A program made the translations under genes and the position numbers. Positions 16,522 to 60,030 of a DNA stretch of 64,000 bases are shown in pieces (positions within the stretch are counted from its first letter, which is position 1; the number at the start of each line of letters is the position of its first letter). The notes under the pieces are model-generated. The model was not told where the DNA came from and searched no databases. It was given only the letters and a program-made list of their open reading frames with translations. The stretch lies in contig JAYJMM010000106.1 of assembly GCA_037349105.1 (NCBI GenBank), positions 1,426,001 to 1,490,000 on the forward strand, read 5' to 3'. The DNA is from Limnomonas spitsbergensis (Eukaryota; Chlorophyta; Chlorophyceae; Chlamydomonadales).

Positions 16522-16764
16522 CTATGCAGCAGCGAGGGGTGCGGGCCCCTTAGCCGGCGTCACCTTCGCCGCCGCCGTCGGGAGCGTCGGCCGGCGGCGC
16601 ACTGGCGGGGCCGGCGGCCGGGGCACTGCGTGCAACAGCTGAGTGCCCACCTCCGGAACCGATTCCAACACAATGCAGGACCAAGGGAGCAGTGGGTACA
16701 CACTCTCAGCCGTCCACATGGATACGGCGGCCCGCGCCTTGGCGACATCCGCTGCACTTAGGTC
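16522..16764 (-). CDS. ISA: ISA exon 25, C-terminus
   Basis: Starts after CTACAG and in phase 0. [12 protein letters not shown] corresponds to the last strand of the isoamylase C-terminal domain (plant forms end near an equivalent SSILLE). It continues into a Pro/Ala/Arg-rich tail of about 38 residues that plant enzymes lack; stop at 16524-16522. Its first 30 bases are the seed of the 84-bp array upstream. Confidence 0.85.
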   Translation of the reverse strand, partial: DLSAADVAKARAAVSMWTAESVYPLLPWSCIVLESVPEVGTQLLHAVPRPPAPPVRRRPTLPTAAAKVTPAKGPAPLAAA

Positions 16765-19700
16765 CTGTAGGATAGCAGGAGAAAATGAGATGTGAGGGCA
16801 GGGGGGCAGGGGGAGTAGGACAGTGGATCGCGCCACTTGGTGACACCTGCCACACTCAGGTGCTGAATGGTAGCAGGAGAAATGTGAGCGCTGGGGGAGG
16901 AGGACAGTGGGTCGCGCCACTTGGTGACACCTGCCGCACTCAGGTGCTGAAGGGTAGCAGGAGAAATGTGAGCGCAGGGGGAGGAGGACAGTGAATCGCG
17001 CCACTTAGTGACACCTGCCGCACTCAGGTGCTGAAGGGTAGCAGGAAAAATGTAAGCGCAGGGGGAGCAGGACAGTGAATCGCGCCACTGGGTGACACCT
17101 GCCGCACTCAGGTGCTGAAGGGTAGCAGGAGAAATGTGAGCGCAGGGGGAGGAGGACAGTGAATCGCGCCACTTAGTGACACCTGCCGCACTCAGGTGCT
17201 GAAGGGTAGCAGGAGAAATGTGAGCGCAGGGGGAGCAGGACAGTGAATCGCGCCACTGGGTGACACCTGCCGCACTCAGGTGCTGAAGGGTAGCAGGAGA
17301 TATGTAAGCGCAGGGGGAGCAGGACAGTGGATCGCGCCACTTGGTGACACCTGCCGCACTCAGGTGCTGAAGGGTAGCAGGAGAAATGTGAGCGCTGGGG
17401 GAGGAGGACAGTGAATCGTGCCACTTAGTGACACCTGCCGCACTCAGGTGCTGAAGGGTAGCAGGAGAAATGTGAGCGCAGGGGGAGGAGGACAGTGAAT
17501 CGCGCCACTTAGTGACACCTGCCGCACTCAGGCGCTGAAGGGTAGCAGGAGAAATGTGAGCGCAGGGGGAGCTGGACAGTGGATCGCGCCACTTGGTGAC
17601 ACCTGCCGCACTCAAGTGCTGAAGGGTAGCAGGAGATATGTGGGCGCAGGGGGAGGAGGACAGTGAATCGCGCCACTTGGTGACACCTGCCGCACTCAGG
17701 TGCTGAAGGGTAGCAGGAGAAATGTGAGCGCTGGGGGAGGAGGACAGTGAATCGCGCCACTTAGTGACACCTGCCGCACTCAGGTGCTGAAGGGTAGCAG
17801 GAGAAATGTGAGCGCAGGGGGAGGAGGACAGTGAATCGCGCCACTTAGTGACACCTGCCGCACTCAGGCGCTGAAGGGTAGCAGGAGAAATGTGAGCGCA
17901 GGGGGAGCTGGACAGTGGATCGCGCCACTTGGTGACACCTGCCGCACTCAAGTGCTGAAGGGTAGCAGGAGATATGTGGGCGCATGGGGAGGAGGACAGT
18001 GAATCGCGCCAATTGGCCACATCTGCCGTGCTCAGGTTCTCCGTACAGGGACACAGGATACGGGCCACCTACCATCCCACCTACGCTCCCACCTACCCTC
18101 CCACCACCCAGTCCAATCCCTCCTACCATATCCGGCACCAGGCAGTCGTAAGGCACCACCTTGTTCCCCAGCCACCCCACTTTGTACCAGCCCTCCCCTC
18201 CCCCTCCCAGCCCACCACCCAGTCTCATCCCTCCTACCATGTCCGCCACCAGGCAGTCGTAAGGTGCCACCTTGGAGGTGTCAAGGACGGGCTGCCACAC
18301 CATGCCACCCAACTTGGGGAGCGTCAGCATGCGGGGCGTGTGGGCTGTGGGCAGTAGGGAGGGAGGAAGTGGGCAGCAAGAAGAGAAAACAAACAGGCAT
18401 CGGGGGGGAGGAGGGGGTCTTAATTGAAGGAGTGCCTGCATGTTGGTAGTGTGGGAGGGGAGAATGGGAGATAAGCGGTGGAGAGGTAGTTGGCAGCAGG
18501 GAGGATAACAGCAGGGAGTGGGGCATAGGGAGGGGGGAATGGGGGACAAGCTGGAGGAAAGGAGGGGGCAGCAGGGAGTGGGGCATAGGGAGGGGGGAAT
18601 GGGGGACAAGCTGGAGGAAAGGAGGGGGCAGCAGGGAGGATAACAGCAGGGAGTGGGGCAGAGGGAGGGGGGAATGGGGGACAAGCTGGAGGAAAGGAGG
18701 GGGCAGCAGGGAGGATAACAGCAGGGAGTGAGGCATAGGGAGGGGGGAATGGGGGACAAGCTGGAGGAAAGGAGGGGGCAGCAGGGAGGATAACAGCAGG
18801 GAGTGGGGCATAGGGAGGGGAGAATGGGGGACAAGCTGGAGGAAAGGAGGGGGCAGCAGGGAGTGGATGATCTGGACACGAGCAGGGTACGCCTTGAATC
18901 ACTTCAATTACAAAAAACATTTGCTATTCTGAATTCACCGCAATCCTTCGCATTGAACATTCGTTGGCATTCAGAACTGAGACGCCCACCTGAATGGAAG
19001 GCCACATACATGCCGCTCCCTTTCATGTAATTGAACAATCATTTGAATTATAAACTGAGACGCCCACCTGAATTGAAGGCCACGTACACGCCGCTCCCTT
19101 TCATATCATTCAGCGAAAAGGCCACCAGGCGGCTGGTGTCGGACCAGTCGGGGACCAGAGGCAGCTCCCCATGCCACAGGATTTCGCGATCATTGACCCA
19201 CTCCCGGCGCTGCAGCTCAGAGTGACGTTTCCTGGGGTGGGGGGTGGGGGCAGGGGATCCAAACAGGATCTATATCTATAGATGCCACTAGATCTGGCGA
19301 CCATTGACCCATTTGCAGCGTTGCAGCTCTGCACGACGTTTCTTGGGTTTAATGGGGGTGCCGTGGAACAACAGAGGATCTAGATCTATACATGCCACTG
19401 GATGGGAGGGTTGGGGGGCGGAGGGAGAGTGGAGGCAGGAAAACAACAGAGGATCTCAATCTTCATGTTTCATTGGATCTCGGACCTCGCAATCATTTCC
19501 CCAATTGCGGCGCTGGGCCTCACTAAGGATGTTTCTAGATGGACGGTTGGGGCGGTTGGGGCGGATGGGGCAGAGGGGAGACGTACGAGGCTGAGGGGGC
19601 GCGCATGAAAGGTGGGGCGGGCTGGGCCCCTTGAGGATGGTTTGGGGTGGGATGAGGGTCTGCTAAAAATTGCTAGAGGGCTTTTGGGGATGGTAAGGGC

Positions 19701-22700
19701 CATTGTAAGCCATTCATCTAAACCATTGATATCTCACTGCTTATGTGACGTCGGGTTTATCGTTTAGTGTTCTAATTGTATAGGAAACGGTATAGGGCTG
19801 AGGGTTTGAGAGGGTCTGAGGTAAACCCCTTGTCTCCTCATACCTGCGATGGATGAGGTGGCAAACAAAGCGGACGGTTTAGGGTTAAGGGTTGATGTTT
19901 GAGGGTATCAGAGCCAACTCTTGTCTCCTCATACCTGAGATGGATGAAGTGGCGCACAAAGCGGTGGGTTTAGGGTTAAGGTTTTGAGGTTAACCCTTGT
20001 CTCCTCATACCTGAGATGGATGAGGTGGCGCACAAAGCGCAGCATGCCCGTCTCATCCTTCTTTGCCTGACTCCAATTCAGCCAGTTGAGCGGACTGCAA
20101 ACATGCAGCAGCAGGTATGTCAGGTGTGCAGCAGCAATACCCCGGCAAGTCAGAGGAGCAGCAGCAGCAGCAGCAGCATGGCAGGTGTGCAGCAAGACAA
20201 CGGCAAGGCAGAGGAGCAGTAGCAGTAGTAGCAGCAGCAACAGCAGTAGCAGCAGTAGCAGCAGTAGCAGCAGTAGCAGCAGCAGTAGCAGCAGTAGCAG
20301 TATCAGCAGTATCAGCAGTAGCAGCAGCAACAGCAGTATCAGCAGTATCAGCAGTATCAGCAGCAGCACTAGCAGCAGCATCAGCAGCAGTAGCAGCAGT
20401 AGCAGCAGTAGTAGCAGTAGCAGCAGTAGCAGCAGTAGCAGCAGTAGCAACAGCAGTAGCAGTAGCAACAGTAGCAGTAGCAGTAGCAGCAGTAGCAACA
20501 ACAGCAGCAGCAACAGCAGTAGCAGCAGCAGTGGCAGCAACAGCAGCAGCAGCATCAGCAGTAGCAGCAGTAGCAGCAGTAGCAGCAGTAGTAGCAGCAG
20601 CAGCAGCAGTAGCAGCAGCAGCATGCCGGTAGTAAATGAACACAACATTTAAAACCTGTGAATTCATAACTATGTGCACCATCACGGGCCAGGATAACCA
20701 TACCTCCCATTCCGGCCGAAGCATGGGACCTGGCGTGTGCCCCTCCTCACCAGTCAAGCCCCTGGTGTAAAGCCACTACACCAAGAGGTATTGCGATGCT
20801 GTAAGGTGCGGCGATTTGTCCACGTCCTTTGCATTCTTTCTGTCCTCCACCCCAAGAAGCGACAATTGGAACATGTCCTTTGCCTCCTTACTGTCCTCCC
20901 CCCCTATAGAAGTGACGCTCCTTTCGGGAAGCATCCCCCTGATGCCGCTTAGCCCCACAGCGCCAGGGTCCGCACTGTCGCCTTTCAGTTCACCACCCTG
21001 CCCCAGCTCCGAGACCACTTTGTAAAGCAACTGCACCAAAAGGTATCGCGATGCTGGAAGGTGCGACGATCCGACCTCATCCTATGCATTCTTACACCTC
21101 GCGCACCTGTCATGGCAGTAGGTGTTGTTGTTGCCCTGTTTGGTGTGGCCATACTCGTCCCCCATGTGCAGCATGGGCACGCCGTGAGAGACGAGCAAGG
21201 CCACGGCAAAGTTCCGCATCTGACGCTGGCGAAGACGCTGTATGGGCAATAGAGTCAGGGCTAGGATCAGGTTTCAGGTTTCAGGTTCCAAGGCTCAGGG
21301 TCCAGGGTCCAGGGTTCAGGGTTCAGGATTCAGGGTTCATGGTTCATGGTCCAGGGTCCAGGGTTCAGGGCTCAGGAGGCACGACGAAGTGTCACATCTG
21401 ACTCTGACGCAGACGTTGAGTGGCCAACATGAGGCCAGAGGGTAGGATCAGCATTCATGGGACAGGTGCCGTTAGAGAGTTGAACAGACGTTGGCGCAGA
21501 CCCTGGTAAGGCAACAAGAGGCCAGGGGGTAGGATCAGGGTTCAGAGAACAGTAGCGTTAGGGTTCCACAGACGCTGGCGCAGGTGGGAGCAAGGGCGGA
21601 GGTAGGTTGAGCGTGGGGGGTCAGGTTCAGGGGGGCATGTGTCTGGGAAGGTCAGCAGGGAGGGGGACGGGTTGCTGGGGTGTAGGGTTCTCGGTGACAC
21701 ATAGGCTGCGTCTGCTGCTATTACATAGCTGCTGTGCATCACAGCAGCGGTTACACAGCGGTTACATAGCAGCGGTTACACAGCAGCGGTTACACATATG
21801 CTGTTTCATGTATCTGGCGCTGATGCAGGCGCTGTTATAAACCAGGGTTCAAGGGGGGCTCGTGCGGTGAAGGTCGAGGTTGTTGGGTTTCGGCCTGTAT
21901 ATATGGCGCTGTTGCAAGCGCTGTGTGGGATCAGGCTTCAGGGGGAGCAGGTGCGGGTTCAGGGTTCAGTGATCAGGATTGTGGATGCGCTGTGTTGTGC
22001 ATCTGGCGCAGTGTTTTTTTATTCCGCTACGAGATCACCATTAGCACGCCCCGCGGCCGTCAAAGGCCCGTTTGAGACAAACCTAGTCAGGCCTACGACT
22101 GGTGGCAAAACAGCATGGCTGGCCACACACGGAGCCTCCGGCCAGAGGCTGGATGGTAGCTGACAAGTGAAGTTTTGTGAAAATTTTACGGTCCATCAGA
22201 GCATTACATTTCATGCATGGGACATGTGCCCATAACCGGTTAAGGCACTTGATACACTAGGACAGAAAGCAAAAACCAGTGACCCCCCTGGGCAAGCAAG
22301 TAGCACAGAACCATGACAGTGGTGTGGGAATGAACCCCATAGTGCAGAAGATAAGCCCCAGTCATAAAACATGACGTGGGTGCAAAAGAGTTCGATTGAG
22401 CACCGCTTAGAGAATACGGGGGGAGATTAGAGATGTGGCAAAGTTTTGAGATGATTCTCTCTTTTCAGCATACACTGAAAGATAAAAGAACCAAATTTCT
22501 TCCAGATCACCGATGCAGAAACACATTTAGATTGCCCCCACACTCCTTTTGTGAACCGTTTCATGGCCTCATCCTCGTCTTCTAGGAAATTATGGAAAGT
22601 AAGGTTAAATTGAAAACGAAGGTCTGTGCAGAAGTAGCGGAGTCACGAAAAAGGAAACCGATCTGGCGATGCTGCAAGCGCTGTGTGGGACCAGGAGAGG

Positions 22701-25700
22701 AGGGGGAGTATGTCCTGTACGGGTTAGGGTGACCGAGTTTCTCGTGCCAACAGAATGTGGAGTTCAGGAATTGCATGTGCTGTTAGGTTTAAGAGTTCAC
22801 GGGTTGCACATGCTGTTAGGATCTAGAGTTCAGGGTTGCATGTGCCGTTAGGGTTCAGAGTTCAGGGTTAGCCTGTCTTGTTAGGGTTAAGTGGATTTAG
22901 GGGATGCAGGCGCAATGTGGAAAAGGGGAAGGGGGGAGGAGAGGCTCAGAGGGGGAGGGAGGGGAGGGAGGAGGGCGAGAGAGATCAGGGATCGGTTAAT
23001 ATGTGTGGATGTGTGGATGTGTGCGTACCTTCACATCCCACCGCTCAGAGGGCCCCTCCTCCCCGCAGTTCCAGCTGCAGTTGTGCGCCTCACCATCCCT
23101 GTGGGAACCCGGAGCAGAGTAGGTCAGGGCTTAAGTGGAGGAGAACACACGCCAACGCAACAGGTGTTTCCCCTCCAACAGCAGGGTAGGTCGGGGCAAA
23201 GGGAAGGAGAATGTGCAGTTAACCCAGCAGTTATGTTTTGCCTCAGAAGTAGGATAGGTCAGGGTTAACCTCGTCCCCTCCCTCCACCTCTCTTCCTCTA
23301 ACTCCTCCCCGTTTGCATTGTGGACCTCCTCTCCCCCGTTTACCTGTTCCCCTCCTCCCCCCTGCCTGCCCACCCTCCCCACCTCCCCCTCCCCTCCTCC
23401 CTCCTTACCTGTCCCCCTCCTCCCCCGCTTACCTGTTCCCCTCCTCCCCCTCCTCACCCTTACCTGTTCCCCTCCTCCTCCTCCCCCCCCTTCGTACCTG
23501 TTCCCCTCCTCCTCCTCCCCCCCTTCGTACCTGTTCCCCTCCTCCTCCCCCCCCCCTTCGTACCTGTTCCCCTCCTCCTCCTCCCCCCCCTTCGTACCTG
23601 TTCCCCTCCTCCTCCTCTTCCCCCCCCCTTCGTACCTGTTCCCCTCCTCCTCCCCCCCCCCCTTCGTACCTGTTCCCCTCCTCCTCCTCTCCCCCCCCTT
23701 CGTACCTGTTCCCCTCCTCCTCCCCCCCCTTCGTACCTGTTCCCCTCCTTCTCCTCTCCCCCCTTCGTACCTGTTCCCCTCCTCCTCCTCCCCCCCCTTC
23801 GTACCTGTTTCCCTCCTTCTCCTCTCCCCCCTTCGTACCTGTTCCCCTCCTCCCCCTCCTCACCCTTACCTGTTCCCCTCCTCCTCCTCCCCCCCCTTCG
23901 TACCTGTTCCCCTCCTTCTCCTCTCCCCCCTTCGTACCTGTTCCCCTCCTCCCCCTCCTCACCCTTACCTGTTCCCCTCCTCCTCCTCCTCCCCCCCCCT
24001 TCGTACCTGTTCCCCTCCTTCTCCTCTCCCCCCTTCGTACCTGTTCCCCTCCTCCTCCTCCCCCCCTCCCTTCGTACCTGTTTCCCTCCTCCTCCCCCCC
24101 CCCCCCTTCGTACCTGTTCTACTCCTCCTCCTTCTTCCCCTTCGTACCTGTTCCCCTCCTCCTCCTCCTTCTCCCCCCTTCGTACCTGTTCCCCTCCTTC
24201 TCCTCTCCCCCCTTCGTACCTGTTCCCCTCCTCCTCCTTCCCCCCCTTCGTACCTGTTCCCCTCCCCGTTTGCATCGTTGTGTTTCTCGTTGTATGAAAC
24301 GAGGTCAGCCAGCGTGAACCCGTCGTGCGCAGTGATGAAGTTGACAGACGCGGCGGGGGGGCGGCCGCCACACCACTTGCGACCGCCGTTGTTCGCCCAC
24401 CTGAGAGAAAACAGTATTGAATTCAGCTACAGTTCAGCTACATTTTCAGCTACAATTCAGCTACATTCCAGCTACAATTCAGCTATATTCCAGCCTGTGG
24501 CTGAGCGTCCATGGTGCAGCATGCCCTGTTGGTTGGGCCGCCAGCTGTAGCTCAGTGCAAATTAGCTCAGGGGTTGTTGCAAGTAGCAAGGTAGTCAGGT
24601 ACTAAATTTGAATTACTGTTTGAAGAATAAATAACTAGAAGAAGCTTTAGGTTATGATGGATAAAGAGGACAACGTTAGATGTCAGCACTACCACTGCTT
24701 TGCCTGCCTTTCATCGCATTCCCTTCCCTTTTGGGGAGGGAGAAATATTTCTCCATTGCGTCCCTACCTATCACCCCTTTCCCCTCTTAACTTAACTTTC
24801 CTCCTCCCAATTTAACTGCCGGGCACTCGCGAGCCCGAGCCTTTTCAGCAGGGCCCAGAGGTGTTACATCATGGACTGATAAACTCTAAAACCCTAAACG
24901 TAATTTGGCTGGTAAGCGCTCAAACCAGCAGGAACACTTCAGGGGTCACACCTGCTGGAAAACGCAGAAAACAAGTTTTTCCGGCTCCACTTCTTCAGGT
25001 AACAAGTGAGCATGTACAACACCCTTATCAGCTTTCCACCATATAGGCAAGTAGAGAGCAGTGAATATTTTAGCATGCCTCAGCTACAATTCAGCTACCG
25101 GCCGTGGGGGCCTGGTGCAAGAGGCCCTAATTCTCATGCCACGGCCATGGCCCAGTCAGGGTTTGGTCCCCACCGGCCCGGTATTGCCGCCCGGCGGCCC
25201 CCCGAAGGTGCTCTAGCACGCACTATAATAAAAACTGTTATAGAGTACCGAAAAATCGACAAGAGGTCCCTCAATCTCGGCCTCAACCCAAACTGGAGGC
25301 TGCACCATGACCCAGGCTGTGCAAGGTAGCTGGACTTGACCTTGTCATTCCCTACCAGCCCCACGCGGCCAAGCGTTCAGCAGGGCCCAGAGAGTACGCA
25401 CAATTCTTAACCCAAACCTGGGGGTGCTACCCAGTTCCCTACATTTTTTTTTGTTATCCAGCTGGATGTCAAGTACACCCCAGCCTCTGGCTGGAGGCCC
25501 CGTTTGTGGCTAGCCATGCTGAATTTGCCCACTCAATGGCCGGCCCAGGTTTGGCCCCAATCAGGCCTTTGGGGGCCGCGGGGCGGGTCCTGCATTAGGC
25601 GGCGTTGTGGCCAGAAACAAAACATTGGCTCCCTCCCTGCCCTCTATTCCCTTCCCTCTGGCCTGCTCCCTCCCTCCCTTCCTCCCCCCTTCTCTCCCCC

Positions 25701-28700
25701 CAATCCCCGTTCCGTTCCCTGGCCTTACCCACAAACCCTCCCTGATTCCTCCCCACTACCTGCTCACTACACCATCTGCTCTCCATTTACTCCTCCCTCC
25801 CGCTCCCTTCAAACTCCCTGCTCCCTCCACATTCCCCACTCCCTCCCTGTTCCCGATTTGCTCCCTACTCCTTACTCCCTGCTCCCTCCCCTATCCCTTC
25901 CCACTCCCTCCCCATTTCCACTCCCTCCCCATTTCCACTCCCTCCAATCCCCAATCCCTTCCCACTCCCTCCCCAATCCCCAATCCCTTCCCACTCCCTC
26001 CCCATTTCCACTCCCTCCCCAATCCCCAATCCCTTCCCACTCCCTCCCCATTTCCACTCCCTCCCCCATCCCCAATCCCTTCCCACTCCCTCCCCATTTC
26101 CACTCCCTCCCCAATCCCCAATCCCTTCCCACTCCCTCCCCAATCCCTTCCCACTCCCTCCCCAATCCCTTCCCACTCCCTCCCCATTTCCACTCCCTTC
26201 CCAATCCCCAATCCCTTCCCACTCCCTCCCCATTTCCACTCCCTCCCCATTTCCACTCCCTCCCCAATCCCCAATCCCTTCCCACTCCCTCCCCATTTCC
26301 ACTCCCTCCCCAAACCCCCCAACCCCTTCCCACTCCCTCCCCAATCCCCAATCCCCCTTCCCTTCCCACTCCCTCCCCATTTCCACTCCCTCCCCAATCC
26401 CCAATCCCTTCCCACTCCCTCCCCATTTCCACTCCCTCCCCAATCCCCCTTCCCTTCCCACTCCCTCCCCAATCCCCAATCCCTTCCCACTCCCTTCCCA
26501 CTCCCTCCCCATTTCCACTCCCTCCCCAATCCCCCTTCCCTTCCCACTCCCTCCCCAATCCCCAATCCCTTCCCACTCCCTTCCCACTCCCTCCCCATTT
26601 CCACTCCCTCCCCCCAATCCCCATTTCCACTCCCTCCCCAATCCCCAATCCCTTCCCACTCCCTCCCCATTTCCACTCCCTCCCCCCAATCCCCATTTCC
26701 ACTCCCTCCCCATTTCCACTCCCTCCCCAATCCCCAATCCCTTCCCACTCCCTCCCCATTTCCACTCCCTCCCCAATCCCCAATCCCTTCCCACTCCCTC
26801 CCCAATCCCTTCCCACTCCCTCCCCAATCCCCAATCCCTCCCCAATCCCCAATCCCTTCCCACTCCCTCCCCAATCCCCAATCCCTTCCCACTCCCTCCC
26901 CATTTCCACTCCCTCCCCAATCCCCAATCCCTTCCCACTCCCTCCCCAATCCCTTCCCACTCCCTCCCCAATCCCTTCCCACTCCCTCCCCAATCCCCAC
27001 TCCCTTCCCACTCCCTCCCCATTTCCACTCCCTCCCCAATCCCCCTTCCCTCCCCCCAATCCCCATTCCCTCCCCCCTTCCTCCCCCCTTCCATTCCCTC
27101 CCCCCTCCCGCCTCACCAGTCACCCTCAGGGGGTGCACTGTTCTGATACATATTGGGAGAGCCACAGATTGCCGACGCAAAGTCACCAGCCCAAGGCCCG
27201 TCAGTTCCCTGGGAAAACAGATGGGGGTGACACAGGGGGGTAAAAGGCTGCTGAGAGGTGACATAGGTACATGAATATATAATACAAAATACGTTGATAT
27301 CTTCTGCTTAGACTCATGAAGGTGTGATGCCGGCCGGCCGCCCAACCCTAGAGAACCTGAAACGCAAACACAAAAAATGGCCCGGGAGCGAACACAAACG
27401 CAGACACAAAAACAGCTTCAGGAGCTGGCGCACATGGCACTCCACCCAGTCCACCCACATACATGATAGCCCCCCTCCCCTACCTTGAGGACCTGGCGCA
27501 CATGGCACTCCTCCCTCTCCCTCTCCCTCACACACAACACATTCGTCTCTCCCTCCCACCACTACTTGCACCATATTTCTTCATCTCCCTCCACCACACA
27601 CATGATGAACGCCACCCATACACATGGCACTCGTCCCTCTCCACCTATCACACACATGGCACTCCCCCTTCTCCACCCATTGCCACCCCCATACCTTAAA
27701 GAACTGGCGCACATGGCACCCCACCCTCTCCCCCCACCACACACATCATTTTTCTTCATCTCCCTCCACCCCACACATCCCACGTCCCTCTCCCCCCACC
27801 ATACACATGGCACTCCTCCCTCTCCCCCCACCCCACACAACCCACGTCCCTCTCCCCCCACCATACACATGGCACTCCTCCCTCTCCCCCCACCCCACAC
27901 ATCCCACGTCCCTCCCCCCACCATACACATGGCACTCCTTCCTCTCTAACTGCCCCCCCCCCTACCTTGAGGAACTGGCGCACAACATCCCGGAAGCGGC
28001 CGTTCCACTCGGACCATCGACCGCCAAAGTGTGGAAATGCGCCGACCTGGGGACATTTTTCGAAGTGAGGGCATATATGAGGGTTTTGGTGAAGGATGAA
28101 GGTGTGAGGGATTTAAATTATAGTTTGAGGCACGAGGGCTTTGTTAAACAGGTTGGACATGATATCATAGCGGTACACTTCATCCTTTGGAACATCTCTG
28201 GCAGTCTGGCACCAGGAGATAGCTAGCGGTACAATCAGCTAGTGGTACAATCAGTGCACGGACCTCCCTGGGACAAAAAACCAGCTTGCAGTACATACAG
28301 TACACATCATGTTTGGTACAAAAAGTCAGCTAGCAGTAGAAGCAGTACACAGCCGTCTCCTCCCTGCCACCTGGTCGAGCCCGTTGCTTGCCCACGTCTG
28401 CTGGCAGTACTAGCAGTACACTGACCTGTGTAAAAAAAGTATACTGTAAGCGTACTGCCCCCAGACACCTGTTTCAGGAGGTTGCAATCCCACGTCTAGC
28501 TGGCAGTACTAGCAGTACAGATTCCATTCTTAGAACCAATAGCTGACTTGTAACTTGAGTAGTGTACCGCATACAGTCACTTGGCTTTGACCGTTACAGT
28601 CTTACGTCTAGCTGGCAGTACGAGCAGTACACTCCCAGGCCTAGTCCCCAAAGCTGGCTAGTAGTACGAGCAGTACACTGCCTCCAGTCACCTGGATTAG

Positions 28701-40700: not shown

Positions 40701-43700
40701 CACTGTTAAGCTTAGGGTTTGGCTCATGTTTTAGAATTGAGATAAGGGTACACCCCAGGGTCCACGGTTAAGCTTAGGGTTTGGCTCAGGTTACAGGATT
40801 CAGCTTAGGGTACACCCCAGGGTCCACGGTTAAGCTTAGGGTTTGGCTCAGGTTACAGGATTCAGCTTAGGGTACACCCCAGGGTTCACAATTACGCTTC
40901 AGGTTTAGCTCAGGGTTCACAATTATGCTTAAGGTGTAGGGTTTATGTCAGGGTTCAGGATCAAGCATATGGTTTAGGCCAGGGTTCAGATTTGAGCTTC
41001 GGGTTTAGGCCAGGGATCATGATAAACCTTAGGACTTGGCTACCCTTCAGCCCTTTGAAGGTGTCATATGTCATATAAGAACATAGATCCACCCCCCTTC
41101 CAAAGTGTGGCCACACTTAAAAGCCTCACTCCCCCAGAGGCATAAGATATCACTCATCTAACCATTTTAAAAGAGTGACCAAAGTAAATAGCCTTACTCC
41201 CCCAGAGGCACAAGCTATCGCTCCTCTAACCCTTTCCAAAGCGTGGCCACATTTAATAACCTCACAACCCCAGAGGCATGTGCTATTGCTCCTCTAACCC
41301 TTTCCATAGTGTTATTGTAGCCAGCCCTCACCTGTACGGGCAACAGCTCCAGAGCATTGACGCCCAACTCCTCCAGGTAATCCAGTCGTTCCATCATGCC
41401 TTTGTACGTGCCTGAGGAGGTGTGGAGGTATGGACTCGAGACACAGCTGTACTCAAAGCTCTCTCTCACTAGATGCAGGTACGGTATGTCACTGCATAAC
41501 TTGTTCATAACAAAAACAAATGTAGACCTGGTAAGAAACGACGGAGGTACCCTCCGGGGGTCGGTGGAGCCAGGAGGCGTGAAAGCTCTCCAAAGTGGGA
41601 TGAAATGACAGCACCATACAGAGTGTCTCGAATGAAAAGGCTTCAGGGCTGTTAAGGCCAGTCATGCCCAACCCTCAAAACCCTCTGCAGGCCCCACCTC
41701 AGCCTACCTACTGATGCTGAGACCCGGCGCAAGGGTTCAGGTCTTAGCTACCCTAGACCCTTACCTGATGCTGAGACCCGGCGCAAGGGTTTAGGTCTTA
41801 GCTACCCTAGACCCTTACCTGATGCTGAGACCCCGGCGCAAGGGTTTAGGGTTCAGGTTTTACCTATCACCCCCAAGTAGACCCTTACCTGGTGCTGATA
41901 CCCGGGGCAAGGGTTCAGGGTTCAGAATTAGTCACCCTAGACTCTTACCCGGCGCTGAGACCCGATGCAAGGGTTAAGGGTTTAGCATTAGTCACCCTAT
42001 ACCCTTACTTGATCCCGTACTTGACGCAAGGGGGCAGGGTTCAGCTATCCCAGAACCTAACATGATGCTGAGACTGGGTGCAAGGGTTCAGGGTTCGGGT
42101 TTCAGCTAACCTAGACCCATACCTGATGCTGAGACCCAGCGTAAGGGTCTAGGGTCCAAATTAAGGGTTAAGTTGCCTAAATCCCTTACCTGGCATTAAG
42201 ACCCGGTGCAAGGGTCAAGGGCTATGTGAAGGGTTTAGATACCCTAAACCCTTACCTGGCGCTGAGACCCGGCTGCTGCTGTCCTGAGTGAAGCCCCTCA
42301 CATGCATTTCGTAGATCACCTGGATCAAGAGGCAAAACGTACTCATGTTTTGATGATATACCTGGCAGCGTTCAAACGTTAACAATATTCAAGGCAGCAT
42401 TCATATGCTATGATAACATACCTGGCCGTGTTAAAATGTAATTCACATTACCGACAGCATTCAAGTGTTGCTTCTCTTGTATCTCTTAGATCAAATGGTG
42501 GTGGAGGATGATACCAAAATTGAAATGCTGGTTGGGATCAAATACCATGACATTTAAACGTTGGATCACGCGTGTGTGATACTAGAGGTATGCAAACCGT
42601 AGTGATACGATGAATTGGTGATACCAATTGGTTATTGGAATAACCAAATGTATCACCATGTAAAATGCTGTGACAATCAATCACCAACTTAAATCACTGC
42701 GATTTAACTGCCCAAACCCTCGGAAACCCTCGAAATTCGCGGTAAGCCAGGATAGCCGCGAAAAAATTCTCCAGTTGATATCTCTTGCGATGGAGGGCCC
42801 CAGCGGTGGACCAGGTCCACCTCCAGGTGCTGCTAGCTCACTACCTGCGAGGCAGCGTAACCTTTTCGATTTCATGCCCCGGGTTCTTCCGGGGCAGCCT
42901 AGTGCTTCCTCGCAATCCGTCAGGCTAGATCCAGAGGTACAGCGACAAAAGGAACAGAGGCTCTTGGAAACGCAGCGCAGGGCTCAACTCGACCCACACT
43001 CGGGAGCTACAAAGCGCCCTCGCATCCTGTCGGCGCTCCGGCAAGCGACGAGCAAGTTCGCAATTAATGTCCGTGCAGCGCTCGCCAGCCTGCTGGATCA
43101 GGAGCTTCACCAAGTCAGGGCAGTCGCGCGGAACCAGGAGGGCAAGCTATTCCCAACTACCGAGCCTGCTGTCGAGCCTGAGGAGGGGCCAGCTGATCAT
43201 GCGGGGAGCAGTGACAATGCTGCTGCTCTGGAGAAGCTGCATGACCAGCTCATGAATGTGCAGCCCGCAACTCTCGCAGAAAAAAAAATCAACAACCAAT
43301 TTAAATCACTGTCAAAAACACGGCCAAATCCATTAACCAATTTATTATCACCATTTTTTATTTTCCATCGATTTTCTTTCACCAATATCATCGTATCACC
43401 AAATCATCGTATCACTACGGAATGCTATGTGGGATCAGAACCGCCGAATATTAGATTGGGTCAAGACTAAGCAAGCCCCAGTGATAATAAGATATGTCAG
43501 CTAAGGCCTGCCGGGGGTGGGCATGGCCGGGGGCTACGGCCTGCCGAGGGTGGGAGGGCCGGGGGGGGGCGTGGCCCAGGGGGGGGGCGTGGCCGGGGGG
43601 GGTCAGAAGTTACGCCGAGGGGACGGCTTGGAGGCTGGCAGCCTTCCCTCGGCCGATGGTGTTGGGGACCCATTTGTGTTCCAGTGATAAATTGGTAAGC

Positions 43701-46700
43701 TCTCCAGTAGTCATCATTTTCTTAATGCTCGGTAGTGTCCAGCCCCTGGTCAATCAGTTTCCAGGGTTACCCAGTAAGACCTTTGGGGCCAAAATCCCTT
43801 ACCGTTTACCGTACCGTTTACGAGTACCGTACCGCAATAAAGCACCGCAGTGGCCATTTCCTTACAAGTCTGGCCATTTTGGCCGTACTGCATCCGTTTT
43901 CGTACCTTACCGTTTGACCGTACTGCATTTCCGTAACCCTGGCTGTTTCAATGTCAAAATGAGGTTTGGGCCCGAATGCAACAAACATGGAAACTGAGCC
44001 AGAATGCCAAAATGCTTTGGTGGGGCAGAGTATCTTTTAGGAAAAAACAGTCCACCCGCAGGCGGCCGCCGGGCGGCCAGCACCTGGCAAGTTGGGACAA
44101 AGTCTTGACCGGCCTATGGCCGGTGGCTGGACTTGCTGCCCCAGGCCCCCACGGCCGTAGGCTGTGATGTAGCTGAATTTTAGCTGAAGCGCGCTAGAGA
44201 AAACACGGGTCAAGCAGCAATTCTTGGATTCTTGAATACTTAAATTCTTGAATTTGGTTGGAATAATGTCCTAGAAAATCCTAGGATGTGGTTCGAATAC
44301 ATACTTCGGGCTGCCTTTTCCTTTTGGGGGGGGTATTTCTTTCTCCTTTATGTTCTTCCCTTATAAATTCGCCCCCCCTCCGGCCATGCCCACCCCTGGC
44401 AGGCCGTTGCGCGTCGATTCTTATTAATCAAATGCTGCAATTATGTTGGGCACATATACAAACGCAAGGCTACATAAAGGTCCCCACGTAGCTAGCAATG
44501 TTAGGGCAGGCAACAAGCTTACAGCCGACCTGCATCAGCCAAAGTGGCAGAGCCTTTCTAGGAAAAAGAAACGAGTAACGAGGACCCCCGTCCCCCCCCC
44601 ACCACCACCCACCCACCATGAACCACCCACCAGTTTCTCCATGGGTATCCCCAGTGGCTTGTCACCCTCCCAGTCAAACTGTGTTCCACCAATGTCATCT
44701 TGGTGGGTTGGGGGCACAGCAGCAGCAGCCTACACAGGAGAGAGGGGCAGTGGACCAGATAAGACAAAAGACTGGTTATGGTAAGACAAGCAGGCTGTGT
44801 TCCGCCAATGGCATCTTGGGTGGGTGTGAGGCACAGCAACAGAAGCCTGCACGGGAAAGAGGGGCAGGGGATCAGATGAGACACAACCATATGTGAAGGG
44901 AAGACAAGCAGTTTGTGTGCCGCCAATGGCATCTTGGTGGGTAGGGGGCACAGCAGCAGCAGCCTGCACGGGAAAGAGGGGCAGTGGACCAGATGAGACA
45001 TTGCCATATCTTAAGGGAAGACAAGCGAACTGATGGACATCCTCTTGAAGGTGCGGCAAAGACGCCGTCCTCTACGTGGGAAGTGAGAGGGGACTTGACG
45101 GAAAGAAAGCTACACCGTATTAGGGCGTGGAGGTTAAGGAAACGGCGCACATCTGCGCCGTTACCATGTACCCTACTTGAGGGGAACTGAATCACTAGAC
45201 ATCAGGCGTTGCAAGCAGAAGAAAATAAGAGGAAACGACGTCCCGCAGGAGCGTGAGGGTGAAGGAAACAGTAAGTCATGGGCCCATACCGCAACTGCGC
45301 TGACAACCCTCCCTCATGTGTTGTGAACAAGAGTGATGGACGACCTTTGGGGGGTTCGGCAAGGTAGCGGCTGCCTCCTCGGGAGAGGGGGGCCACCACA
45401 GAGATGGAACAAATAATATCATTGATACAAGCTGGGCTCTCAACCCTAAACCCTCAGCTGGGCTCTAAACCCTAAACCCTCAGCTGGGCTCTAAACCCTA
45501 AACCCTCAGCTGGGCTCTAAACCCTAAACCCTCAGCTGGGCTCTAAACCCTAAACCCTCAGCTGGGCTCTTAACCCTAAACCCTCAGCTGGGATCTAAAC
45601 CCTAAACCCTCAGCTGGGTTCTTAACCCTCAACCCTCAGCTGGGCTCTAAACCCTAAACCCTCAGCTGGGCTCTTAACCCTCAACCCTAACTTGCTTCAC
45701 ACCGATGAGCAATGGATACATTCCATGTGTTTACTCTGCTTCAAGACAAGGCAGCCACTAACCTCAGCACAAAATTCATCGTCTGAGGCCGACGGCAGCG
45801 CGGTGATTCGGCATTGTTCTTTTTAATGCAATTCAGGTACACTTGAGCTGCATCCCCGTGTTTGGCTTGTAAGGATAGAGATTGAGCACGGTTCATAATG
45901 TTTTGAGGCAAGCCTCGGTCCCTCCAGGTCGGACCCCGGCCCCTTGCTGCATCCCCGTGTGTGGCTTGAAGGGATAAAGACTGAGCACGGTGCAGAGAGC
46001 CCAGCTGGATAGGCAACCCTCCGTGGGGCGAGCAAGGTTCGGGTCCCATTCGTTCAGGGGCGGCCAAAAATGGGCGGCGTTCACAACCCTCGCTGAGGGC
46101 ACATATACAACTACCATAGATTCGCTTTGCCTTCCCTCATATTAACGTTGTTTGAGGTTGAGGGATCGATGGATATACGAATAATCGATCGTCGTCGCCA
46201 GTGTTCAGTCAGAAACCAAGAGCTTTGGTCGATGATTTGGCCTGAGGGCAGCATGGGCAGCATGGGCAGCATGGGCAGCATGGGCAGCATGGGTAGCATG
46301 GGCAGCATGGGAAGGACACGATTGCCCAGACCCGAGGGAGGGCAAATCAAATCTACGGTACTCCTTTATTTACGGCCTCCAAGACATTCCCCCAAGAGGC
46401 CGCTTGATGCACGGTGAAAGGAGACCCCCCTGACAGCACTGTCACGCATCGAAAATGTTCAAATGCAAATAGCAATCTGAATGCAAAAGCCACGGAACAG
46501 AACAAAACCTGACTGCGGAAGTCTGTTAAGGCCAGCCACCCACAGTCCAGCTCGTCCCCAACCCGAAACCTGAACCCTCACAGCATTGTGATCTCCCACG
46601 ATGCTAATGTCTCCTGATTGTAAACTGCCTAAAGTGTTACATCCCTTGATTGTAACTTCTCCCTTTCTCGCTGTAGCCTCCCCAGATTGTCTGTAATCTC

Positions 46701-49700
46701 CCCTGATTGTAACCTTCCTGATTTCAACTGATACCTGCTGCCAGGTGCGAGAGCCGCCCAGGACGCCCTCGGTGCCGTACTGCAGGTCAGGCCCGAGCTG
46801 GCCGTACTGCCTGCGGCTAATCACACTTTTTGCGTAGGGGTCCAGGACGATCCGGCTCTGCAGTGCAAGTGGGTTTAGGGTTTAGGATTTAGAGTTTAGG
46901 GTTTAGAGTTTAGGGTTAAGGGATTAGGCTTGAGCAGCACAAGAGGAGGGGTAACGGGTATTGAACTGTAAATCGCAAGAGAGGGGGTAATGGGCATTGC
47001 ACTCTACAGCACAAGAGGGGAGGCAATGGGCATTGGACTAAACAGCACGACAGGGGGGGGTAATGTGCATTGCAGCTAAGTCTGAGCATCGCCCTTATCA
47101 CGCTTCCATTACCTGTCGACTCCCGCCCATTCTGCCGACACCTGCCCATTCTGCCGACACCTGCCCATTCTGCCGACACCTGCCCATTCTGTCGACACCT
47201 GCCCATTCTGCCGACACCTGCCCATTCTGCCGACACCTGCCCATTCTGCCGACACCTGCCCATTCTGCCGACACCTGCCCATTCTGCCGACACCTGCCCA
47301 TTTTGCCGACACCTGCCCATTCTGCCGACACCTGCCCATTCTGCCGACACCTGCCCATTCTGCCGACACCTGCCCATTCTGCCGACACCTGCCCATTCTG
47401 CCGACACCTGCCCATTCTGCTGACACCTGCCCATTCTGCCGATACCTGCCCATTCTGCCGACACCTGCCCATTCTGCCGACACCTGCCCATTCTGCTGAC
47501 ACCTGCCCATTCTGCCGACACCTGCCCATTCTGCCGACACCTGCCCATTCTGCCGACACCTGCCCATTCTACCGACACCTGTTCATTCTGCCGACACCTG
47601 CCCATTCTGCCAACACTCAGGTGCAAATCTGCATTTGCTGATGTCTCTATTAAGTCGTTACGCATAGCATGCCCCCCTGATGTTACAATCACATCAACAC
47701 CAGGCATCGACATGACCCCCCCATCAACGCCAGGCATCGACATGACCCCCCCATCAACGCCAGGCATTGACGCGAAAGGTACGGGCGTCATTCGCCGTGG
47801 TAACCCTAGCTTGCCAGTGGGATGCGTCAAGATATCTGAGAACCGCCCCTATCAAGATATCTGAGAACCGCCCCTATCAAGATATCTGAGAACCGCCCTT
47901 ACCAAGATATCTGAGAACTGCCCCTATCAAGATATCTGAGAACTGCCCTTACCAAGATATCTGAGAACCGCCCCTATCAAGATATCTGAGAACCGCCCCT
48001 ATCAAGATATCTGAGAACCGCCCCTATCAAGATATCTGAGAACCGCCCCTATCAAGATATCTGTGAACCGCCCTTACCAAGATATCTGAGAACCGCCCTT
48101 ACCAAGATATCTGAGAACCGCCCTTACCATGATTTCTGAGAACCGCCCTTACCAAGGTATCTGAGAATTGCCCTTACCAAGATATCTGAGAACCGCCCTT
48201 ACCAAGATATCTGAGAACCGCCCTTACCAAGATATCTGAGAACCGCCCTTACCAAGATATCTGAGAACCGCCCTTACCAAGATATCTGTGAACTGCCCTT
48301 ACCAAGATATCTGAGAACCGCCCTTACCAAGATATCTGAGAACCGCCCTTACCAAGATATCTGAGAACCGCCCCTATCAAGATATCTGAGAACCGCCCCT
48401 ATCAAGATATCTGAGAACCGCCCCTATCAAGATATCTGAGAACCGCCCCTATCAAGATATCTGAGAACCGCCCTTACCAAGATATCTGAGAACCGCCCTT
48501 ACCAAGATATCTGTGAACCGCCCTTACCAAGATATCTGAGAACCGCCCTTACCAAGATATCTGAGAACCGCCCTTACCAAGATATCTGTGAACTGCCCTT
48601 ACCAAGATATCTGTGAACCGCCCTTACCAAGATATCTGTGAACCGCCCTTACCAAGATATCTGAGAAACGCCCAAACTAACATTTCTGAGAACCGCCCTT
48701 ACCAAGATATCTGAGAATCGCCCTAACCAAGTGTCCCTTAACTGCCGATAACTGCCCATGCTGTCAATACTCCGGTGTCAAATCCGTATTTATTTATAAA
48801 AAAAACTTTTGTGTGCATCATTACTTTGCCCCCACATGCCCCCTCCCCTCTGTGTCCCAGATTTCCTCTCATAATCTCCAGAGTTTATTTTAGTGCGTGC
48901 CAAAGCACCTTTGGGGGGCCGCCGGGCAGCCATTCCTGGGCCGACTGTGACCAAACCTTGATTGGCCTAGGGCCGGTGGGTCAAGCAGTACAGCTTGCTG
49001 CACCAGGTGTTCGCGGCCTTAGGCCGTGATGTAGCTGAATTGTAGCTGAAGCACGCTAATATAACCAGTGATACCCTCCCCAAAGCGCACATGTGCTTCT
49101 TTTCACAATGCAGCATCCTTGGCAGTTGCCCAGGTAGCCCATGATACGGTGCGATACGGCACAGGTTTCCCCAGATTGTACCAGTTACTGCCAAGGCAGC
49201 ACGATATGGCACGATACCGCACAGGTTAAGCGGGATTGTACTGCCTAGGTAGAAAGACAAGGCCAGGTAGTGTACAGTTGTAGCTGAATTGTGCTACCAA
49301 TGCTGGCAAGCACCGCACAGTCATCTGCACCTCGTCATGGCAGTGCCCGGCCCAGTACAGTTGTAGCTGAATTTTAGCTGACTTGTGCCCCGGCCCAGTA
49401 CAGGTGTAGCAGAATTGTAGATAAATTGTGCCCCCGCACCGTACAGTTGTAGCTGAATTGTAGCTGAATTGTGCCCCGAAACGGCACAGTTTTTTGCTGA
49501 ATTGTGCTACCTATGCTGGTGAGCACCGCACAGTCATCCCCACCTCGTCATGGCGGTGCCCCGGTCCGTCTGTTTTGTTGGACTGGTGCTGCCCCGAGAC
49601 CCGGTAGCCTGCGGTACAAAGGAAGTACCATCACTCGTGCACGCGTTTTCATTCACTTGTGCTACATTCAGCTACATGCCTGCTGCATTCAGCTGCATGC

Positions 49701-52700
49701 CTGCTACATTCAGCTACATGCCTGCTACATTCAGCTACATGCCTGCTACATTATGCTACAGGCCAGCTACATTCAGCTACATGCCTGCTACATTCAGCTA
49801 CATGCCTGCTACATTCAGCTGCATGCCCGCTACATTCAGGTACATGCCTGCTACATTCTGCTACATGCCTGCTACATCCAGCTACATTCCTGCTACATTC
49901 AGCTACATGCCTGCTACATTCAGCTGCATACCTGCTACATTCAGCTACATGCCTGCTACATACAACTGCATGCCTGCTACATTCAGCTACATGCCTGCTA
50001 CATCCAGCTACATGCCTGCTCCATTCAGCTACATGCCTGCTGCATTCAGCTACATTCCTGCTACATTCAGCTACATGCCTGCTACATTCAGCTGCATACC
50101 TGCTACATTCAGCTACATGCCTGCTACATTCAGCTGCATACCTGCTACATTCTGCTACATGCCTGCTATATTCAGCTACATGCCTGCTACATTCTGCTAC
50201 ATGCCTGCTACATTCAGGTACATGCCTGCTACATTCTGCTACATGCCTGCTACATCCAGCTACATTCCTGCTACATTCAGCTACATGCCTGCTATATTCA
50301 GCTGCATACCTGCTACATTCAGCTACATGCCTGCTACATTCAGCTGCATACCTGCTACATTCTGCTACATGCCTGCTATATTCAGCTACATGCCTGCTAC
50401 ATTCTGCTACATGCCTGCTACATTCAGGTACATGCCTGCTACATTCTGCTACATGCCTGCTACATCCAGCTATACGCCTACTACATTCAGCTACATGCCT
50501 GCTACATTCAGCTACATTCAGCTACATTTCTTCTACATTCATCTATATGTCTGCTACATTCCGCTACATCCCTGCTACACTTCAGCCTCATCCCGGCATA
50601 CAGATGACTATCCCGGCATACAGATGAGGTGAGGGGCTGAGTGCAATACCACTCTTTGTCCAGAGCATCCCTCCTAGTACTGGCATTGCCCACTAACGAT
50701 AGCACACATTCTGATGGTAACAGCACGGATGCGGCTACGGCCCCAAGCTACGCTGCTACCCTTACCTCCACGCCCCATTGGGGCGCAGCTTTCTTCCTTT
50801 CTTTGGGGGACATCTGCCGTCCGCCGGTCAAGGATTGATCCAAACACGTCTGCCCAGGGGTAGTGGCTGATCAGCCCCCGGACCTGCAAACCCTTAACCC
50901 TTAACCCCAAGCTCACCGTACAACAGCCCGGGTTTCAGTCCTGGAACCATGGTGTGCCAGATGTCCCCCGTCCTGTTGACATCCGGCAGCATCTCCACTT
51001 CTGCGGTGATCCGACCAGCCTGTTGCGCAACAACAGCAGCAACAACAGCAGCATAATGCAAACGTCCCCCGTTCTGTTGACCTCCGGCAGCATCTCCACC
51101 TCTGCGGTGATACGGCCAGCCTGTTGCTCAAAAACAGGGACAACAGCAACAACAACATCAGCATTACGCAAACGTTCTCCGTTCTGTTGACCTCTGGCAG
51201 CATGTCCACCTCCGCGGTGACCCGCCAGCCTTTTGCGTGAAGTTAGCAACAGCAGCAACAGCAACATTAGGCATAAAGGTGGCAGGCTGGAAGCATCAGG
51301 AAGGTTTACCAGCAGCAGCTTTGGGGGTAGACGCAGGCACATTAAGAGGCCACATCTGGAGTCTCTGACAAAAAACAGCAGCATCGGGCAAACGCCGAAC
51401 GGAGGCCACATCAGGAGGTAGTTGTAATAACAACAGCAGCAGCAGCATCAAGCATGAAGACGGACACATCAGGAGGTTCCCTCACAGCTGGAGGAATGTT
51501 GAGACTAAGGAAACAGGACTAACTTAACCTATCTCAGTGCTCAGTACCATTAGGCATTCACTGACTTGAAATGCGAGCCAAATGCCACGGCTTGAAAACC
51601 GATCATGGCGCACGCCCCGTCCCCTGAAAACCCTCTTCTTGACAAAGCTAATTCACAAGAGATAGCTTCCAGCAATCTGTCCACACCGAGTGACCACATT
51701 GAGAAACATGTCCCCCCTTACGCAGCCAATCTACCCAATCACATCCCCTTGCATCACCATGCACCAACGCTGCCTTGCCATTAGAAGTTGCCATTTCGCC
51801 TCCTCATGCCAATCTGTCACATCGCCTCCCCATGCACCATGCACCCATGCTGCCTCCCCAATGGACAATGCACCCATGTTGCCTCCCATGTACACATGTT
51901 GCCTCCCATGCACCATGTCGCCTCCCATGCACCATGTCCCCTCCAATGCACCCATGTTGCCTCCCATGCACCCATATTGCCTCCCCATGCACCATACACC
52001 CATGTTGCTTCCACACACCATGCAACATACACCATGCACTCATGTTGCCTTTCCATGCACCATGCAACCATGTTGCCTCCCCATGCATCCCACTTTCCCA
52101 TTTACATCTGCCTCATGCGCTCCCCCTTTACCTGCAGATCCTCTTCTGTGAACAGACATAAGCTGACAGCCGTCGCCGAGGATGAGAACACAGAAAAATT
52201 GACGGCAGCCTGATGGCATGGAGGCGGAAATGAAAGAATGCCAAGACTTGAGCTCTCGTCGTGCACGCTCTGGGGTAGCAGGCAATGGTGTTGCACGCTA
52301 TGCTGTTACCAGCTCGGATGTTGCAGGTCATGGTGTAGCGAGCCCTAGGGTTGCAACCTATGTTGCTACCAGCTCGGATGTTGTAGGTCATGGTGTTGCA
52401 GGCTATGGTATTGCAAGCAAGTGCGTTAGTTTCTGATATCAACGAGGGGCACCAATGCATGACAGATATTTCATTACTTCCGTGATGGAGGAGCACAAGG
52501 TAGAGCACCGAGGAAGGCATGGTTTTCTGAGAGAGGAGCATAAAGTACAGCAGAAGCAGAAGCAGCAGCAGCAGCAGTAGCAGCAGTAGCAGCAGTAGCA
52601 GCGGCTGCAGCAACATCATCCATTATCTCATGCATTGCATACACAGGTTGTGACATGCACGCCATTTTCACCATGAGATCCTTAGCATGCCTTTTGCACC

Positions 52701-57127: not shown

Positions 57128-57480
57128 TACTAAGTGTTTAATTTGGAAGAGGCAAGATATTATTCTGCCCCCTTCTTCTCCCTCATGCACCCCCCCCCCT
57201 CAGAGGGTCCTACAGGGTCCATGGACATCAACTTTGACACATGGCATGTACCGAATGTTTCATGGCCGTCCCCTTGGGTATCAAATAATGAAATATTTCC
57301 ATCCGTGCCTTTGAGGCAAACATTGCACAGAACCTAGCTATCCATCCCTGACAGAATCTCGCATGGACGATTGATAATAAGTCCATGCATGCATCAGGCC
57401 CCCAGGCAACATTAATAACAGGGCATGCACAACCAAATCATGTTTTTCCCTTGAATACGGAATTATCTGATTTTTTTCCA

Positions 57481-59514: not shown

Positions 59515-60030
59515 CACGTAATTGCGCGCAAGCAAGGCTTGTCACACGGCAATGCCGTACCGTAGCTACAACTGTTTTATTACCCTCACAGACATACCTA
59601 AGTGGCAGTTACTCGATGTACACTTCAAGACGGTTCTTTTTAGGGATGATCATGTTTACGAGTCTTGGGTCAGCTCGACTCTCCTGTGCCGCAGGGACAG
59701 TCAGTGGGGCTAATCAAATTTCGTACCCAGGGTTGTGTGGAGCAGAGGATATTAGGAATCTTTGATTTAGTAACAAATTACAGCAGTCGCACCCTCAATG
59801 GATGAAAGAAAAAGACAGAGGCTGCGATGCGGTCCCAGTCAGATAATCTTTGGCAGGCCCCTGCCAGGTCGCGCCCATTTTGGCAGGCCCCTGCCAAGCA
59901 CTCGGCCTGACTCAGGGGAGCTGGGAGCGCAGCCCAGCTGGCTACGAGCAGTTGGGCATTCTTCACAAATCATTATATTGGGCTACACACCTAGGATTCG
60001 ACATGCCGGATATGCACTGTAAATAGGCAC
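59515..60030 (+). repeat. Dispersed repeat copy A
   Basis: Shares TTGCGCGCAAG, GGCAGGCCCCTGCCAAG, ATCATTATATTGGGCT and ATGCCGGATATGCACTG with copy B at 63600-63900. It ends about 85 bp before the ATG of the next gene. Confidence 0.75.

Follow-up and report, generated by a model that had tools for sequence, protein, structure and literature searches.

Why do the introns of some genes contain tandem repeats whose unit runs across the splice junction into the neighbouring exon, and are such junctions the places from which introns grow? The question is raised by an isoamylase (ISA1-type) gene of the green alga Limnomonas spitsbergensis, which lies on the minus strand at 16522..52976 of the window, as the whole 64,000-nucleotide stretch analysed here is called; the genome assembly containing it comprises 260 Mb in 124 contigs. 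The gene has 25 coding exons and 24 introns, and its exon edges come from a spliced alignment in which 40 homologous isoamylases served as the profile, a procedure that is blind to repeats (the start of exon 1 was placed by eye). All 24 of the 24 introns are GT-AG. Between 52976 and 16525 the introns amount to 33,668 nt and the coding sequence to 2,784 nt; at 92% intron, the gene agrees with the original prediction that introns make up over 90% of it. Among the homologues listed for the draft protein the best is from Chlamydomonas eustigma (68% identity). The ISOA1-3_C domain match falls under the cut-off in the last exon (E 0.00035) and above it in exons 23 and 24.

Junction copies were sought with probes of 30 exon and 30 intron nucleotides, each of the 48 being aligned to its own intron; a match had to exceed the best of 60 dinucleotide shuffles and to include at least 6 exon and at least 4 intron nucleotides. 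In this shuffle-tested scan, junction-crossing copies are present within the intron at 19/48 junctions (11 donors and 8 acceptors) belonging to 16/24 introns, and the count was 19-21 when the scan was repeated under slightly altered rules with 25 first-order Markov shuffles. The chance level, given by aligning isoamylase junctions to a non-adjacent intron, is 1/48. All of the donors (exons 4, 7, 10, 11, 12, 16, 17, 19, 22, 23 and 24) and acceptors (exons 3, 6, 11, 14, 16, 21, 23 and 25) that had been named beforehand are recovered, and no others. As was also foreseen, copying favours exon edges over exon interiors: exon 60-mers have an intronic copy in 37/93 cases when they lie at most 15 nt from an edge versus 5/89 when they lie more than 45 nt inside. 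GT is kept in 61/63 donor copies and AG in 29/33 acceptor copies, a high retention that is favoured by the requirement that the alignments span the junction. The observation that isoamylase introns contain junction-spanning tandem copies is confirmed.

The repeats of this gene described here all lie on the minus strand. The largest junction-spanning family is found at the donor of exon 12 (37413-37317), where a 133-bp unit, composed of the last 29 exon nt and 104 intron nt, is present in 23.4 copies at 34246..37345 and provides 23 intronic donors. At the donor of exon 19 (24400-24254) a 34-bp unit with an exon part of 12 nt is repeated 25 times (23325..24265), while the donor of exon 7 (42319-42256) has 7 copies, the nearest at 66 nt, with exon parts of at most 21 nt (41711..42273). 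The donor of exon 16 has 3-4 copies (28283..28961; exon part 24-29 nt), and two copies each are seen at the donors of exon 11 (37490..37864; at 145 and 259 nt, exon part 13-15 nt), exon 17 (28046-27966; copies 27416..27984, exon part 19 nt) and exon 22 (20094-20011; copies 19787..20039, at 76 and 167 nt, exon part 29 nt). The donor of exon 4 (49608-49544) has one copy, 213 nt into intron 4 (49274..49561; exon part 18 nt), and there are duplicates of 102 bp at exon 10 (39164-39084; 38911..39114, exon part 31 nt), 78 bp at exon 23 (18952..19110; exon part 43 nt) and 111 bp at exon 24 (18344-18238; 18080..18274, exon part 37 nt).

On the acceptor side, exon 25 (16764-16525) has 84 bp x 14.7 at 16733..18040, with an exon part of 32 nt. 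Exon 16 (29057-28933) has three older copies besides 107 bp x 3.7 at 28996..29895 (exon part 62 nt), a duplication with a homologous counterpart in a paralogous gene, and exon 6 (44729-44631) has 117 bp x 3.0 at 44680..45026 (exon part 51 nt). Units in 2 copies occur at exon 3 (51019-50917; unit of ~101-109 bp, 50968..51236, exon part at most 57 nt) and exon 11 (37932-37852; unit of ~120 bp, 37885..38200, exon part 42-48 nt). The remaining acceptor repeats are old: a copy at 127 nt with 73% identity at exon 14 (30876-30694; 30820..31043, exon part 57 nt), 2 copies at exon 21 (21237-21107; 21202..21583, exon part up to ~40 nt), and a ~111-bp unit at 74-75% identity at exon 23 (19231-19068; 19171..19403, exon part 61 nt). 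A further array, 19 bp x 8.9 at 40361..40529, begins as predicted with the first base of intron 9 (the last base of exon 9 is 40530, the array starts at 40529), and its unit is without exon bases. Degenerate plant-type telomere-like repeats (TTTAGGG, AACCCT) are found in several introns (21267-21376, 46871-46928, 39427-39680 and others) and also within the 133-bp unit. The possibility that this unit derives from a structured RNA was rejected, the 9 Rfam matches in the window all being under gathering scores.

On C19 lies an isoamylase paralogue that agrees with the window gene in its 25 exons and in all 24 intron positions, and 17/48 of its junctions are matched. (A third isoamylase-like gene, on C95, was left out, its model having an internal stop and a score of 472 vs ~3500.) Third codon positions of the paralogues are identical at 354/647 sites (55%), and alignable sequence is kept in 5/24 introns. 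Before the half-alignment rule was applied, 20 junctions were matched in the window gene and 22 in the C19 paralogue; the 8 in common compare with 9.2 expected by chance, so the majority of matched junctions are not common to the paralogues. Two of the five introns with alignable sequence contain junction duplications common to both genes, at donor 12 and at the acceptor of exon 16, which indicates that such duplications can be of old date and undergo renewed amplification later; the donor 12 unit is present in ~1.5 copies in the C19 intron (by eye), and the window gene alone has it in 23 almost identical copies. Most of the conserved genes searched occur in pairs that have diverged but whose exon structures are identical or almost so (C106/C19, C39/C99, C70/C107, C112/C32, C123/C4, C124/C21 and C36/C119), suggesting an old large-scale duplication. 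HSP90 matches at C32:466000-500000 form three tandem blocks, two of them apparently partial.

Two long-intron AAA genes, picked on protein similarity and long span when their repeats had not yet been seen, are matched at 16/40 junctions; 17 housekeeping genes (CDC48, EF2, HSP90 and HSP70), whose introns are mostly a few hundred nt, are matched at 18/332. The whole sample gives 70/468 junctions in 21 genes, the rate being ~40% in the four long-intron genes. The high rates in these genes and the 18/332 in the housekeeping set tie the phenomenon to long introns and extend it beyond the window gene. Exon edges are homology-based in all genes, set by the profile of homologues in the isoamylases and by other reference proteins in the rest, with roughly 40-60% identity in the case of the AAA models. 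Introns under 150 nt were dropped (housekeeping and AAA genes), and so were two introns flanking a 2-nt pseudo-exon and, in the HSP70 and AAA genes alone, introns poorly supported by homology next to a junction; the introns kept were 22/26 for CDC48, 64/83 for EF2/HSP90, 80/109 for HSP70 and 20/25 for the AAA genes.

Elsewhere in the window, the prediction that an RPS10 gene has the same pattern appears, by eye, to be borne out at one donor junction: an RPS10-like exon (56270-56181, minus strand) is followed in the next intron by an older copy of its 3' edge (~56082-56047), exon and copy together occupying 56047..56270. Between the RPS10-like exons at 59653 and 56270 sits an open reading frame on the plus strand (57471-58388) that weakly matches a reverse transcriptase domain (PF00078, E 3.9e-5, under the curated cut-off). 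The plus strand also contains a 593-aa open reading frame with a right-handed beta-helix domain (8659-10437; PF13229) and one of 255 aa with a nucleotidyltransferase domain (6426-7190; PF01909). Long arrays of short units are present outside the isoamylase gene at 2618-3984 (20 bp x 68), 11902-13199 (14 bp x 95) and 60769-61726 (12 bp x 78).

The orientation and location of the copies bear on how they arose. In the two isoamylase genes direct copies are found at 40/96 junctions (19/48 in the window gene, 21/48 in the paralogue), inverted copies at 2/96 (one per gene), and a junction copy in a non-adjacent intron at 1/96 (one in the window gene, none in the paralogue). When searched against the 260-Mb genome, the donor 12 unit matches, besides its own array, the paralogous intron (at 80%) and short pieces no longer than 59 bp; the exon 16 acceptor unit matches its own array and the paralogous intron, and the exon 25 acceptor unit its own array alone. 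Direct orientation, confinement of the copies to their own intron and the locus specificity of the three units together point to local tandem duplication of DNA. It is probable, in our judgement, that the introns grow by ordinary local tandem duplication that occurs throughout introns and often brackets a junction. Such duplication, whether by slippage, unequal exchange or microhomology repair, would produce a unit consisting of exon tail, donor and intron head, or of intron tail, acceptor and exon head. The mRNA would be unharmed provided that splicing uses the outermost copy, which adjoins the complete exon; a duplication across a junction can in this way be tolerated, and the inner copies, sealed inside the intron, would be free to amplify and diverge. 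If splicing used a near inner copy instead (taken as the closest one whose site is intact, except at donor 19, where it is the second), a frameshift or an added stop would follow in 18/19 window-gene cases, so the spliceosome presumably uses the outer copy. We infer this use from the reading frames; the outer copy would be the one that completes a short exon, and exon definition is probably the natural reading of such a choice. Duplication is seen again in unrelated genes with long introns and in the paralogue, where the junctions affected are mostly different ones.

Whether junctions are duplicated preferentially depends on how repeats are counted. In the window gene, 2454/4214 intron 60-mers have copies, as do 1204/1980 of those at least 45 nt from a junction, and per base the interiors are 58-61% repetitive versus ~40% at the edges. 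However, a single long array occupies many interior positions, and for that reason each array was also counted once; on this basis the interiors score 0.19-0.22 versus 0.40-0.44 for window-gene junctions. When the intronic half, where both copies are free to drift, is scored separately at an identity of at least 90%, 10/48 junctions of the window gene are matched versus 0.095 in the interior. In the two isoamylase genes together, false-positive rates are equal for junctions (2/96) and interior windows (42/2606). In a matched test each junction was compared with the interior of its own intron, each array counting once, with bootstrap confidence intervals (CIs) over introns. Across 21 genes this test gives 70 matched junctions of 468 vs 46.4 expected (ratio 1.51, CI 1.23-1.83). 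Because the window gene was selected for its repeats, counts are also given for the 20 genes without it: 51 of 420 vs 33.3 expected (ratio 1.53, CI 1.18-1.93). The excess at junctions is modest, roughly 1.5 to 2-fold, and model-dependent. The original prediction that repeats are anchored on junctions therefore stands in part, junctions being crossed ~1.5 times more often than interiors of the same introns, and in part does not, the interiors being the more repetitive per base; its further claim that junctions are the main site of intron growth is not supported, in view of the repetitive interiors and a per-array excess of only ~1.5-2-fold.

Given this excess, exon edges might be preferred sites of duplication, through transcription-linked breaks or R-loops for example, and might drive intron growth; this reading is doubtful but deserves weight. 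In its favour, junctions exceed their own interiors ~1.5-fold and a uniform null ~2-fold, and the excess is also seen among young copies, whose intronic halves are at least 90% identical (34 vs 22.3 expected of 468 in 21 genes, CI 1.09-2.05). Nor is the excess restricted to two-copy families: in the four long-intron genes the ratios for 1, 2-3 and at least 4 extra copies are 1.56, 3.01 and 1.70. (The survival of a protected exon copy as the cause of the excess is not favoured, since there is no concentration in two-copy families.) However, a break at a fixed point of the junction should leave its mark on the size of the exon part, and there is no sign of this, the sizes being compatible with uniform placement: in four genes the median exon part is 29 nt for donors (n=31) and 40 nt for acceptors (n=18), and comparison with uniformly placed duplications yields KS p values of 0.14 (donors) and 0.60 (acceptors), or 0.10 and 0.88 when the exon part is taken relative to unit length. 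(In the window gene the exon parts had at first looked narrower than uniform, but simulation did not bear this out.) In addition, the repeated intron sequence lies mostly away from junctions, and the 17 housekeeping genes alone exhibit no clear excess (18 vs 13.3 expected of 332, CI 0.82-1.94). It is only tentatively that junctions may be regarded as true hotspots in this lineage, duplicated through a transcription- or spliceosome-linked lesion, with growth partly seeded there and the junction then re-amplified. Under ordinary local duplication the excess could reflect either such a mutational preference or repeated re-amplification from a junction copy that selection keeps intact.

At the other extreme, duplications might fall uniformly, those across junctions being merely tolerated, with no excess whatever. 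The greater repetitiveness per base of the interiors fits this reading, as does an unmatched pooled ratio close to 1 outside the isoamylase genes (1.06, CI 0.65-1.54); the matched interval without the window gene, moreover, touches 1 when an intronic-half identity of 0.8 is required (36 vs 26.7 expected, CI 0.98-1.79), while at 0.9 it does not (24 vs 15.5 expected, CI 1.02-2.24). The unmatched pooled ratio is 1.18 (CI 0.92-1.49) for 19 genes and 1.07 (CI 0.73-1.44) without the window gene. Pooled ratios, however, mix intron-length classes, and the matched test is preferred on that account; inside four such classes they are 1.60, 1.49, 2.49 and 1.43. Tandem Repeats Finder, whose extents are too insensitive at diverged edges to serve as a spanning test, gives 10 spanning loci of 64 vs 4.6 or 6.1 expected (P 0.011 or 0.062), and self-BLAST families (17/38 spanning) were set aside, short units being lumped together.

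A null simulation with uniform duplications, from which those that break the mRNA were discarded, argues against pure chance. (It has no deletions, its distributions of unit length and copy number are guessed, and it leaves out simulated genes that grew too large, one seed in each of two runs.) At rising rates the simulated matched ratios are 0.99, 0.73 and 0.58 with the lowest threshold and 0.75, 0.61 and 0.33 with the strictest, that is, ~1 or below, as in the unmatched simulations, in contrast to the 1.53 measured without the window gene. Simulated genes of comparable interior repetitiveness (0.57-0.66) have a mean of 7.6-8.8 matched junctions of 48 and a maximum of 15 (n=34), so that 0/34 reached 17/48, compared with the 19 and 17 of 48 observed in the isoamylase pair; when the rate was set excessively high (0.75 interior repetitiveness, mean intron 2274), 1/16 genes exceeded 17/48, with 23/48. 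In the two isoamylase genes the excess is present, moreover, in three of four complexity-threshold strata (12/36 vs 0.158, 16/31 vs 0.175 and 10/21 vs 0.214) and small in the highest (4/8 vs 0.397). Zero excess is thus unlikely. The argument originally made, that nothing should anchor ordinary intronic minisatellites on junctions, overlooked the tolerance of duplications there and the junction-spanning minisatellites known from lancelets (PMC3087553).

A role for selection, which might retain duplicated splice sites because redundancy aids very long introns or because the copies serve as alternative sites or mini-exons, appears improbable. The preserved GT and AG of the copies would fit such a role, but many copies are simply young and their alignments are forced to span the junction; the near inner copy, if used, would break the protein in nearly every case, and few of the paralogous introns retain alignable sequence. 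The intron-12 unit (window 34246-37345; L007 8950-9450) is a further point in favour: over some 190 nt it is ~80% identical between the paralogues, well above their third codon positions, and in both it has, by eye, a pyrimidine-rich TAG|G, a 35-36-nt exon-like piece and then GT. This similarity could reflect constraint, conversion or a used mini-exon.

Two further readings of the copies carry little weight. That reverse-transcribed splicing intermediates or spliced RNA gave rise to them, as the original prediction allowed, is very improbable: spliced exon-exon joints are copied in 3/48 introns (2/24 in the window gene, 1/24 in the paralogue), slightly above the 1-2% false-positive rate but far under the 40/96 of genomic junctions, and the units are contiguous exon plus intron, direct, and in their own intron. 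Unspliced RNA, by comparison, might still have served as a template. Introners, or introner-like elements, are dispersed families that add intron sequence and create new introns. It is equally hard to credit that the repeats are introner or transposon copies or, alternatively, assembly artefacts: although the reverse transcriptase-like open reading frame at 57471-58388 suggests a retroelement nearby, the three array units searched genome-wide are not dispersed families but are tied to one junction, or to it and its paralogue, intron positions are common to the paralogue while arrays mostly differ, and copies inside arrays differ from one another.

Work on the so-called mirages of lancelets reportedly includes Canestro et al. 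(2002, NAR), as cited by later lancelet papers. As described in two such papers, mirages are minisatellite-like tandem duplications across intron/exon boundaries, found in Adh3, the globins BflGb6 and BflGb9, and troponin C, with similar repeats in PGBD5; splicing is reported to be undisturbed, units measure 10-72 bp (Adh3) or 150-160 bp (globins), and arrays undergo concerted evolution (PMC3087553, PMC3902484). The algal units resemble mirages: they are part exon and part intron, span the exon-intron boundary, affect both 5' and 3' boundaries, and many keep AG or GT. They differ in extent, since mirages are described there for a handful of lancelet genes whereas the alga has 70/468 junctions in 21 genes, with up to 23 extra copies, as well as a measured excess over interiors, known here from the sequence of one assembly. 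For the length instability and the undisturbed splicing of mirages the algal observations are narrower: turnover is seen between the paralogues of one assembly, and the predicted protein would stay intact if the outer copy is used. The alga is a new, dense occurrence of a kind known from lancelets.

In the Rogers model, as given in a review and a Drosophila study, introns are gained by tandem genomic duplication of an exonic AGGT (PMC3443670, PMC2891723). The algal repeats likewise involve tandem duplication of splice-site sequence, but they differ in that existing introns grow; the 24 intron positions, compared with those of the paralogue, are identical and give no new position. Tandem repeats in the introns of Chlamydomonas reinhardtii and Volvox carteri crowd near intron-exon junctions in a U-shaped distribution, which is read as regulation, and units with exon or splice site are undescribed in the available part of that paper (PMC3887541); the alga shares with these species green-algal introns rich in tandem repeats. 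Two other papers put introns of related algae at medians of 198-343 bp (PMC8226300) and a mean of 788 bp (PMC11228838). Among the open-licence papers searched, no earlier algal report of junction-spanning repeats was found.

Taken together, a curiosity of a few lancelet genes is now present in a green alga, and densely enough for statistics. Junction-spanning duplication is a possible route of intron lengthening. It also bears on splice-site choice: intron 12 offers the spliceosome 24 nearly identical donors, of which the first must be picked, and intron 24 has up to fifteen similar acceptors, of which the last must be picked. If the excess at junctions is mutational, it would tie transcription or splicing to DNA duplication.
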